Part shown: positions 13,178 to 15,940 of the stretch, one piece after another
Layout of the letters: each line of letters starts with the position of its first letter
Numbering within the stretch: the first letter of the stretch is position 1
Notes under the pieces: generated by a model
What the model saw: only the letters and a program-made list of their open reading frames with translations
What the model was told of the DNA's origin: nothing
Databases searched by the model: none
Origin: Xanthomonas indica
GTDB taxonomy: Bacteria > Pseudomonadota > Gammaproteobacteria > Xanthomonadales > Xanthomonadaceae
Length of the DNA: 64,000 nucleotides
Direction: 5' to 3'
Assembly: GCF_040529045.1 (NCBI RefSeq)
Contig: NZ_CP131914.1
Location: forward strand, 3,332,501-3,396,500
Position numbers and translations under genes: made by a program

Positions 13178-15940
13178 ATGTCCTCCGCCCGCCACACCCG
13201 CCTGTCCGGCCTGGAGCCGTTGCTGCTGACCCCGGACCTGCTGTTCGTCAACGTCGGCGAGCGCACCAACGTCACCGGCAGCGCGCAGTTCCGCAAGCTG
13301 ATCAAGGAAGAGCGCTACGAGGAAGCGGTGGAGGTGGCGCGCCAGCAGGTCGCCAATGGCGCGCAGATCCTCGACGTCAACATGGACGAGGGCCTGATCG
13401 ATTCGGAGAAGGCGATGGTGCGCTTTCTCAACCTGATCATGTCCGAGCCGGACATCGCGCGCATCCCGATCATGGTCGACTCCTCCAAGTGGAGCGTGAT
13501 CGAGGCCGGGCTGAAGTGCCTGCAGGGCAAGAGCGTGGTCAACTCGATCTCGCTCAAGGAAGGCGAGGCGCCGTTCGTCGAACAGGCGCGCAAGGTGCTG
13601 CGCTATGGCGCCGCGGCGGTGGTGATGGCCTTCGACGAGGTCGGCCAGGCCGACACCTGCGCGCGCAAGGTGGAGATCTGCACCCGCGCCTACCGCATCC
13701 TCACCGAGCAGGTCGGGTTCCCGCCGGAAGACATCATCTTCGACCCGAACATCTTCGCCGTGGCCACCGGCATCGAGGAGCACGACAACTACGCGGTCGA
13801 CTTCATCGAGGCGACCCGCGAGATCAAGCGCACCCTGCCGCACTGCCACGTCTCCGGCGGCGTCTCCAACGTGTCGTTCTCGTTCCGCGGCAACGAGACC
13901 GTGCGCCAGGCGATCCATTCGGTGTTCCTGTACCACGCCATCGCCGCCGGCATGGACATGGGCATCGTCAACGCCGGCGGCATGCCGATCTACGACGAGT
14001 TGGATGCGGAGCTGCGCGAGCGCGTGGAGGACGTGATCCTCAACCGTCGCCGCGACGCCACCGAACGCCTGCTGGAAATCGCCGAGCGTTACAAAAAGGC
14101 GGGGAATCGGGAGGCGGGAGTCGGGAATCGGGAAAAGCTGGCCTGGCGCGAAAAGACCGTGCGCGAGCGGTTGAGCCATGCACTGGTGCACGGCATCGAC
14201 GAGTTCGTCGAGACCGATACCGAAGAGGCGCGGCAGCAGGCCGCGCGCCCGCTGGACGTGATCGAAGGCCCGCTGATGGACGGCATGAACGTGGTCGGCG
14301 ACCTGTTCGGCGCCGGCAAGATGTTCCTGCCGCAGGTGGTGAAGTCGGCGCGGGTGATGAAGAAGGCGGTCGCCTACCTGCTGCCCTACATCGAGGCGGA
14401 AAAACTGCGCAGCGGCGACACCGGCAAATCCAACGGCAAGATCATCATGGCCACGGTCAAGGGCGACGTACACGACATCGGCAAGAACATCGTCGGCGTG
14501 GTCCTGGCCTGCAACAACTTCGACGTGATCGACCTGGGGGTGATGGTGCCGACCCAGACCATCCTCGACCGCGCCCGCGCCGAGAACGCCGACATCATCG
14601 GCCTGTCCGGGCTGATCACCCCGTCGCTGGAAGAGATGACCCACGTCGCCCGCGAGATGCAGCGCCAGGGCTTTTCGATGCCGCTGCTGATCGGCGGCGC
14701 CACCACCTCGCGCGCGCACACTGCGCTGAAGATCGACCCGCACTATGCGGCGCCGACGGTGTGGGTCAAGGACGCCTCGCGCGCGGTGGGCGTGGCGCAA
14801 TCGCTGATCTCGCGCGAACTGCGCGCCGCCTTCGTCGCTTCCAACGACGCCGACTACGCCGAGATCCGCCAGCGCCACAAGAACCGCGGCGACGCCAAGC
14901 GCCTGGTCTCGCTCGCGCACGCCCGCGGGCAGCGCTTCGACGGCGGCTGGGACGCCTACACCCCGCCGACCCCGCGCCAGCCCGGCCTGCACGTGTTCGA
15001 CGACTACCCGCTGGACGACCTGGTCCCGCTGATCGACTGGACGCCGTTCTTCCAGGCCTGGGAACTGGCCGGCAAGTTCCCGGCGATCCTCACCGACGAG
15101 ATCGTCGGCCAGCAGGCCAGCGAGCTGTACCAGGACGCGCGGGCGATGCTGCAGCGGATCGTCGAGGAGAAATGGCTGACCGCCAAGGCGGTGTTCGGGC
15201 TGTGGCCGGCGCAGTCGGTCGGGGATGACGTTGTGGTCCTGACGGACCGGGAATCGGGAGACGGGAATGGGGAATCGTCGAGCGGGACTGCGCCGCTCGA
15301 CCATTCCCGATTCTCCATTCCCCATTCCCTGCATTTCCTGCGGCAACAGGTCGACAAACCCGCCGAGCGCCCGGACTTCTGCCTGGCCGACTTCATCGCC
15401 CCGCGCGACAGCGGCAAGCAGGACTGGATCGGTGCGTTCGCGGTCACCGCCGGCATCGGCATCGAGCCGCACGTGGCGCGCTTCGAGGCGGCGCACGACG
15501 ACTACAACGCGATCCTGCTCAAGGCCCTGGCCGACCGCCTGGCCGAGGCGCTGGCCGAGCGCCTGCACCAGCGCGTGCGCACCGAGTTCTGGGGCTATGT
15601 CGACGACGAGGCGCTGGACAACGAGGCGCTGATCGCCGAGCGCTATCGCGGCATCCGTCCCGCCCCCGGCTACCCGGCCTGCCCCGACCACAGCGAGAAG
15701 CAGACCCTGTTCGCGCTGCTCGACGCCGGACGCAACGCCGGCATGTCGCTGACCGAGAGTTTCGCGATGCTGCCGACCGCCGCGGTGTCCGGCTACTACT
15801 TCAGTCACCCGCAGAGCCAGTACTTCGTGGTCGGCCGGCTGGGCAAGGAGCAACTCGCCGACTACGCGCGGCGCAAGGGTGTCTCGCTGCAACAGGCCGA
15901 GCGCTGGCTGGCCTCCAACCTGGACTACGACCCGGAGTGA
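13178..15940 (+). CDS. metH: Methionine synthase, pterin/cobalamin/activation part (split MetH, C-terminal part)
   Basis: 920 residues from ATG 13178; a frame-extended start at 13124 adds 18 unrelated residues. Domain order: methyltetrahydrofolate-binding barrel (about 20-300), cobalamin cap (about 325-400), B12 domain with the lower-ligand histidine in DVHDIGKN (about residue 430), and SAM-binding activation domain with [12 protein letters not shown] (about residue 827). Together with the upstream gene it covers all of E. coli-type MetH. Two peptides lack counterparts in E. coli MetH: about residues 308-320, between pterin and cap domains, and about 691-718, in the activation domain. Both are encoded by heptad repeats and stay in frame. 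The intact frame and full motif set argue for a working enzyme. Confidence 0.93.
14101..14135 (+). repeat. GGGAATC heptad array inside the second metH gene
   Basis: Five G-tracts (GGGG, then four GGG) with 4-base spacers encode [12 protein letters not shown], in the linker between the pterin and cobalamin-cap domains. No inverted partner is nearby. Confidence 0.85.
15248..15332 (+). repeat. Heptad hairpin element inside the second metH gene
   Basis: The left arm (15248-15276) is GGGAATC-type and the right arm (15302-15332) is its inverted C-rich counterpart. The centre is a perfect 9-bp stem GTCGAGCGG / CCGCTCGAC (15277-15285 and 15293-15301) with a 7-base loop. Pairing the arms outward gives a long, mostly paired stem with mismatches about once per heptad. 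It is in frame and encodes about 28 residues of the activation domain. Confidence 0.85.

Follow-up and report, generated by a model that had tools for sequence, protein, structure and literature searches.

Unlike palindromic repeats in one loop of the methionine synthase MetH of Xanthomonas and its relatives

Introduction

Rickettsia palindromic elements (Ogata, Claverie) are palindromic repeats that are tolerated in frame in many proteins, and their families are found in one genus, spread over many genes. The element described here lies in metH2, the second of two genes for the methionine synthase MetH, in a 64,000-nucleotide stretch of Xanthomonas indica (RefSeq assembly GCF_040529045.1, contig NZ_CP131914.1, forward strand positions 3,332,501 to 3,396,500); this whole stretch is called the window, and positions are those of the window unless a locus is named. 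The element is a heptamer-based inverted repeat inserted in frame. The loop of MetH that holds it is probably a tolerant site that has been colonised repeatedly by unlike palindromic repeats; in Xanthomonas these are probably swapped as cassettes.

The heptamer repeat itself was already known, as it was described by Rehm et al. 2015 (PMC4692102) among the GGGAATC or GGGNATC G-quadruplex repeats of Xanthomonas, which show a preference for four units and form inverted pairs. In that account inverted pairs number 70 in Xcc and 75 in Xac, with 11% and 7% inside or overlapping genes, and the single or pair type is usually preserved; the portion of the paper available reports neither a recurrent coding site nor a change of subtype. 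De Nocera et al. 2013 (PMC3733652) described GTAG/CGTC dimers of repetitive extragenic palindromic (REP) sequences that lie in frame in enzymes and encode 20-30 residues. According to the accessible text of that paper, different REPs occur at about the same recB site in X. campestris and X. oryzae, which is the nearest precedent found. Its main text has 0 matches to 'methionine', and its list of target open reading frames (ORFs; Additional file 3) might name metH or purL. Bertels and Rainey 2011 (PMC3116915) identified the inverted REP doublet forming a hairpin (REPIN) as the mobile unit, and the part of that paper available includes three reads reported as doublet excision. Among the literature matches listed, with subscription papers mostly outside the coverage, none reported a metH or purL hot spot or a change of subtype.

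Results and Discussion

The element in metH2

MetH is divided between two ORFs in the window, metH1 (11929-13074) and metH2 (13178-15940). A single ORF at 13124-15940, with an in-frame ATG at 13178, spans the element, and the NCBIfam methionine synthase model NF007024 scores 1558 bits on metH2 (query 13181-15940). The relevant features are as follows.

13178..15940, + strand: metH2, encoding the pterin, B12 and activation domains of methionine synthase; open frame, NCBIfam NF007024 and TIGR02082 above cut-off
15249..15276, + strand: left arm, four heptamers GGGANNS
15277..15301, + strand: spacer, a perfect 9-bp stem with a 7-nt loop
15302..15329, - strand: right arm, four heptamers, inverted
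15239..15328, + strand: metH2 insert as used for genome comparison, 30 codons between DDVVV and LHFLRQQ, where most short forms have 8

A first-pass annotation made from the letters alone had placed an in-frame hairpin of arrays in the second metH gene, and this was confirmed at 15249-15329 as inverted four-unit arrays around a perfect 9-bp stem. The left arm reads GGGAATC GGGAGAC GGGAATG GGGAATC and the right arm CATTCCC GATTCTC CATTCCC CATTCCC. Between them, GTCGAGCGG (15277-15285) and CCGCTCGAC (15293-15301) pair at 9/9 positions around the loop at 15286-15292, and over the complete 37-nt arms complementarity is 81%. The left array had been called a GGGAATC array; heptamers are present, but the array is imperfect, with GGGAATC in only two of the four left units. 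The extra length that had been put at about 28 residues relative to Escherichia coli was also found, but the net difference from E. coli MetH (1msk) is 18 residues, and that from the usual short form is 22 (30 versus 8).

The coding strand of 15249-15276 has four G-tracts, which give it G-quadruplex potential from sequence alone. GTAG is absent from 15249-15329 and CGTC occurs once, at the junction of left arm and stem (by eye). Rfam gave no match in the window at gathering scores, and a known structured RNA was rejected, as the five weak Rfam hits around the element are of hairpin type or due to chance (E >=0.15). By eye, a small stem GGTGGTCC-TGGC-GGACCACC, with the variants GGTGATCC/GGATCACC, stands at the left edge of many alleles. 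Evidence of a target-site duplication was not recognised: the near-repeat CACCTCCTG/CACTTCCTG at the right edge of GGGATT-type alleles has no left partner that could be seen by eye.

Fillings of the loop across the family

Sequences of metH were taken from the genus (20/20 genomes match), from the best 80 of 566 named-genome relatives and from the family (385/395 genomes match), 40 loci being picked for a long match from the family matches listed. After six duplicates were dropped (L009, L014, L015, L024, L028 and L029, copies of the window, L031, L030, L040 and L041), 136 distinct loci were kept. The interval from DDVxV to LHFLRQQ is short (8-13 residues) in 48/136 loci. Heptamer arrays fill it in 51/136, comprising 19 GGGAATS, 20 GGGATTS, 6 GGGACCS, 3 GGGACTC, 2 GGTGATT and 1 GGCCAGA. 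Four further repeats were recognised: R1, the REP GGGGCTTCAGCCCCGAC, in 3/136 loci; R2, the REP GTAGGAGCGACGTC, in 3/136; R3, GAAGGTGCCCGAAG, in 8/136; and R4, GGGGGAAGGTTGGGATGGGGG, in 9/136, where L129 was assigned manually, following its near twin L128. The remaining 14/136 fillings, class 'other', have no recognised repeat. In the best-80-of-566 set 32/80 loci are filled.

R1 and R2 were rejected as unrelated repeats, being alike at 17/23 bases, a score equalled in 0/500 shuffles. Pairwise likeness among the consensus words of the heptamer, R1/R2, R3 and R4 types is no better than that of shuffles. The reading frame is open in every locus read, with a run of N in the insert of L138.

The first-pass annotation had proposed that the segment is a repeat-derived in-frame insertion, to be abandoned if all xanthomonads shared a conserved peptide there. 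The segment is absent at the same place in relatives, with 8 residues in L041 of X. albilineans and in 46/136 loci, and other species have different peptides derived from different repeats. Its comparison with Rickettsia palindromic elements also holds, since the metH2 insertion works likewise, in frame and repeat-derived.

The reactivation domain of MetH meets flavodoxin. The loop lies within this domain and its frame is open, as expected if the peptide were selected and the loop were evolving new contacts, for example with the flavodoxin partner. However, no motif common to fillings of different classes is visible (by eye), on which ground peptide conservation was rejected as the cause, and short and filled forms are intermixed within genera. 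A selected peptide is therefore highly improbable.

Four related loci of one genus (L137, L142, L143 and L146, genus g15) have fillings of 31-33 residues with no recognisable repeat, which are perhaps old insertions that have become ordinary coding sequence. The MetH of L101, a record titled Bacillus subtilis SK7B5, groups among Stenotrophomonas in the tree, and this record is probably mislabelled or contaminated.

One site in the protein and copies elsewhere in the genome

The site is the same throughout, and over the aligned stretch of the protein it is the only hot spot. The alignment of the 136 MetH2 proteins begins about 590 residues ahead of the site and runs to the C-terminal end; among its 801 core columns, insertions of at least 10 residues occur at one site only, in 85/136 rows and with up to 46 residues. 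Besides small gaps adjoining this site, insertions of at least 4 residues are found only at a second heptamer array, which adds 4 residues in 11/136 rows.

14102..14136, + strand: heptamer array in frame within the pterin-B12 linker, one orientation

By eye, this linker array is decayed in X. albilineans.

In the solved structure of the E. coli MetH activation domain (1msk), the alignment has a gap at the insert. The best structure model built with 33 sequences places the insert between strands 111-117 and 139-146 of the modelled fragment (mean predicted local distance difference test score, pLDDT, 68; predicted template modelling score 0.70), so that the insert likely occupies a beta-turn of the reactivation domain.

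Counted without matches at metH itself, the four non-heptamer types occur elsewhere in most of the carrier genomes tested (19/23), and the reversed patterns gave 0 matches. R1 is found outside metH in 3/3 carriers (67, 13 and 8 of 68, 15 and 8 matches, the 68 being those of the Luteimonas gilva genome), R2, as a long exact pattern, in 2/3 carriers with one or two copies, R3 in 7/8 and R4 in 7/9. A tree built from the metH flanks without the insert implies at least 56 changes among 12 states, at least 37 with heptamers merged and at least 19 between short and filled forms; losses and exchanges are counted here along with arrivals.

A single insertion, made long ago in the common ancestor of the order and since diverged past recognition, would account for the constant site without recurrent arrival. 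It would also fit two resemblances seen by eye, namely DHRDSGxGIGDS...QSPIPNPQSR in heptamer fillings of Luteimonas, Pseudoxanthomonas and Xanthomonas, and SLLPxGEGARRADEG common to R3 fillings across genera. However, the heptamer, R1/R2, R3 and R4 words are without similarity, and the short forms are scattered over the tree. Because the types recur elsewhere in their carriers, the fillings look like arrivals and not like products of decay, and descent from one insertion is quite improbable.

The same point beyond the family, and a second site in purL

In an order-wide search 279/299 genomes match, and 14 genomes outside the family were chosen for a split match. All 14 have a long insert at the same point of metH. 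By eye, L150 carries an inverted GTGGGAGGGCCACTTGTGGCCCGATC pair, L155 and L163 inverted GGGGCTG heptamers, and L151-L153, L156 and L158-L162 R3-like or CTCTCCC-type repeats. Among the matches listed outside the family, single-match places span about 950-1020 bases, compared with 975 for the short query.

The gene purL also contains repeats of this kind.

L207 4236-4306 and 4901-4978 (G000:C1 about 1428535-1429277): purL, two inverted pairs, both in frame

The first purL site is matched in 115/119 family genomes. Thirty loci were fetched, of which 27 were cut by pattern, and repeat types were read by eye. Recognisable repeats are present in 17/27 loci: heptamer arrays in 12, R3-type repeats in 4 and a CCCTCCCCC-type repeat in 1. 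The first purL site is thus a second hot spot across the family, and metH is not unique, because the purL loop holds unlike repeats too.

Change of subtype between genomes of one species

Xanthomonas sp. F10 (genome G006, metH locus L031) is assigned by the tool to the species of the window's genome, with 98% identity between the metH flanks of the two. The metH insert of G006 is a GGGACCC pair with a different spacer, and the same holds at the first purL site. The window and 20 further stretches (464 kb), together with a 7-kb purL stretch, were compared with 483 kb of G006. Aligned flanks bracket 33/46 array clusters, 13 of which are inverted pairs. G006 shows a different type (4 GGGATT, 3 GGGACY) at all seven GGGAAT inverted pairs, of which one lies in metH and two in purL, and the type is kept at all six GGGATT inverted pairs (one-sided exact p 0.0006). 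At each of the seven changed pairs both arms are altered together (by eye), while the flanks from 20 to 320 nt are intact (96.7-100% identical); one flank of a kept pair is 90% identical. Spacer identity, a rough measure, is 0.26-0.74 for changed and 0.74-0.99 for kept pairs.

The repertoires of the two genomes differ as well. GGGAAT double units number 23 in the window's genome and 6 in G006, which has 22 GGGACC double units, a type outside the ten commonest of the window's genome. By eye, G006 has GGGATT and GGGACC mixed among 50 matches listed, and G004, whose metH filling is GGGACC, has mostly GGGACC and GGGACT units among 100 matches listed. Neighbouring genomes L010-L013 share the GGGAAT allele at metH, a poor guide to the direction of the change given how frequent exchange is.

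Nearest relatives were determined for 34 filled rows, 33 from the genus plus one from Luteimonas. Insert and flank point to different relatives in 32 of them, and in 23 the flank-nearest row belongs to another class. The inserts of L036 and L035 are 97% identical, compared with 87.5% for the flank. This disagreement between insert and flank points to cassette exchange.

The discordant histories would also be expected if only long tracts were exchanged between strains by homologous recombination, with the element as a passenger. Tracts from a foreign species would, however, lower the flank identity observed at the seven changed pairs, and the change is confined to GGGAAT pairs, which makes long-tract exchange unlikely as the whole account. 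Alternatively, quasi-palindrome hypermutation, by template switching and slippage, might rewrite both arms in place. The joint change of the arms and the capacity of seven-base arrays to slip are in its favour, as is the partial similarity that 6/7 changed spacers retain (0.63-0.74, versus 0.41-0.54 for shuffles). Against this, the GGGATT pairs of the same two genomes kept both type and more similar spacers, and hypermutation explains neither the R1-R4 fillings nor nearly identical inserts with divergent flanks as in L036 and L035. It too is an unlikely explanation.

Comparison of these sequences allows a further, tentative suggestion, that doublets overwrite one another in place and that the sites may be fixed docking slots with changing occupants, some of them in core enzymes. 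The similarity kept by the six spacers, which may be diverged relatives rather than foreign, makes it somewhat less likely.

Folding of the insert

The 90-nt insert at 15239-15328 has a minimum free energy of -49.2 kcal/mol as RNA; z is -3.7 relative to 60 synonymous recodings and -2.2 relative to other windows from metH2 itself. The folding test was applied to 135/136 loci, L138 with its run of N being left out. Values of z below -2 relative to recodings were obtained for 39/74 repeat-type inserts and 1/48 short forms. An RNA hairpin under selection, the stem of which slows translation or sets mRNA stability so that palindromes are kept once landed and their arms co-vary, would predict this excess as well as the joint arm change at 7/7 pairs. 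The excess is real for many fillings but expected, because they are palindromic by origin and would pair without selection, and an mRNA role deduced from pairing by itself was rejected. The same repeats are mostly intergenic. Moreover, 'other' fillings reach this value in 0/13 cases (5/13 relative to windows of their own gene), and the 48 short loci, including all six records named S. maltophilia, argue that the insert is not needed for metH mRNA. A selected hairpin is therefore improbable, and an RNA or protein function of the insert is possible but unsupported.

A probably tolerant turn and its occupants

The preferred reading, repeated colonisation of a tolerant loop, may be set out as follows. 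The element is one copy of a dispersed palindromic repeat with two inverted four-heptamer arms and a short spacer. The turn between two beta-strands of the reactivation domain would accept peptides of widely differing sequence and length, so that in-frame arrivals survive there and arrivals elsewhere in the gene are purged. Repeat-rich genomes would supply unlike palindromes, giving short forms scattered among fillings throughout the order. In Xanthomonas the resident would be swapped as a cassette that includes both arms, much of the spacer and some flank, at most a few tens of bases, either through short-tract recombination between strains or through loss of a doublet and re-entry at the same spot. 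The part of this reading that concerns a tolerant turn is well supported; tolerance as the cause of recurrence, and the molecular route of entry and exchange, are what we infer from the pattern.

Several observations weigh against it. The 88/136 filled loci are no measure of prevalence, the filled share being inflated because 40 loci were picked for a long match. Fourteen fillings have no recognisable repeat and some heptamer fillings retain a single arm. The exact patterns found no copy outside metH in 4/23 carriers (one R2, one R3 and two R4), several other carriers hold just one or two copies there, and genomes that do not carry a type in metH may nonetheless hold it: R3 has 17 matches in the L. 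gilva genome (L050, with R1 in metH) and R1 has 27 in the window's genome. Not every change on the tree is an arrival, because common descent or transfer may account for heptamer fillings that loci share. The structure model is modest, and the remaining models have a mean pLDDT of 63 to 43. The change of type rests on a single strain pair. In that comparison 13/46 clusters are unbracketed, including two GGGAAT arrays beside purL (L207 2165-2192 and 2387-2414), the single-orientation GGGAAT array typed in both genomes (14102, the metH linker) kept its type, and the 36 nt to the left of the metH insert are 78% identical (by eye), so that the piece exchanged in metH takes in some flank. The partial similarity of the changed spacers belongs here too. 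No movement of elements was observed, and no search aimed at transposases was made.

Heptamer arrays in the genome and the window

The pattern GGGANTSGGGANTS has 903 matches in the window's genome, and the reversed pattern 0, which puts the repeat family well above chance. The sequence GGGAATGGGGAATC at 15263-15276 fits the description of GGGAATC-type repeats (Rehm et al. 2015), which asks for GGGANTN units over 14 bp or more, one or more of them GGGAATC. In the window and 40 genome stretches, picked around plus-strand GGGANTSGGGANTS matches, four units are present in 63/97 arrays, which usually have GC(C/G) ahead and often a GCAACAGC- or GCAAAAGC-like tail behind. Both orientations are present in 28/61 array clusters.

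Only 4/61 clusters are in frame, two in metH2 and two in purL, by a rule that requires at least 40 coding-like codons on either side and leaves arrays at extreme gene ends uncounted. This low share, together with the 89% and 93% of repeats that Rehm et al. 2015 give as intergenic in the text available, does not bear out the earlier suggestion that the repeat seeks exon-like sites, and the metH loop is better called tolerant than sought.

Three further inverted pairs in the window, with strand unassigned, differ in type from their counterparts in G006.

11857..11978: inverted GGGAAT pair, with the upstream gene ending and metH1 starting (ATG 11929) inside its spacer; GGGACC pair in G006
42591..42711: inverted GGGAAT pair; GGGATT pair in G006
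44175..44310: inverted GGGAAT pair; GGGATT pair in G006

The N-terminus of metH1 is array-derived, because the first of these pairs flanks the upstream gene end and the metH1 start.

Other repeats were noted alongside. REP copies (GTAGGAGCGGCTTCAGCCGCGAC, GGGGCTTCAGCCCCGAC) lie at 28915-28937, 45093-45115, 45137-45159, 53041-53063, 55249-55271 and 55415-55431 and include one inverted doublet. By eye, a hairpin word CAGCCTGCGGCTGTTGAAAGCC or similar adjoins heptamer arrays at about 55490 and in L187 and L204, and is perhaps another repeat that accompanies them. L192 (G000:C1:635807-635904) has 14 perfect GGGAATC units in a row, followed by repeated GCAACA.

Comparison with described systems

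Earlier examples of intragenic palindromes were isolated ones, whereas a single loop of a core enzyme here serves as a natural trap for insertions, with many fillings. It is a candidate insertion-tolerant site in MetH, where the rates, frames, sequence limits and fates of repeat-derived segments could be measured with a control internal to the gene. Close strains may carry different fillings, so that this gene lets one follow repeats as they spread through functional proteins. For small palindromic repeats, REPs and heptamers alike, the change of subtype within a species makes it possible to test directly whether they move or replace each other and by what means.

The metH2 element resembles Rickettsia palindromic elements in being a palindrome inserted in frame at a place where relatives lack it; it differs in that several kinds of repeat occupy a single site, and the likeness is one of description only. 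With the REPINs, as presented in the available part of Bertels and Rainey 2011 (PMC3116915), it shares the organisation of a dispersed inverted doublet of a short repeat, but its heptamer arms do not belong to that kind of REP sequence. It agrees with the repeats of Rehm et al. 2015 in its heptamers, four-unit preference, inverted pairs and minority of genic copies. It departs from that account, as far as the text available extends, in the four-unit element preceded by GC(C/G), the GCAACAGC/GCAAAAGC-like tail, the single coding loop with unlike fillings and the change of subtype. The closest parallel, the intragenic REPs in the accessible text of De Nocera et al. 2013 (PMC3733652), concerns recB in two species, whereas the metH site is order-wide, holds at least four unlike kinds of repeat and is accompanied by a within-gene control and a tree.

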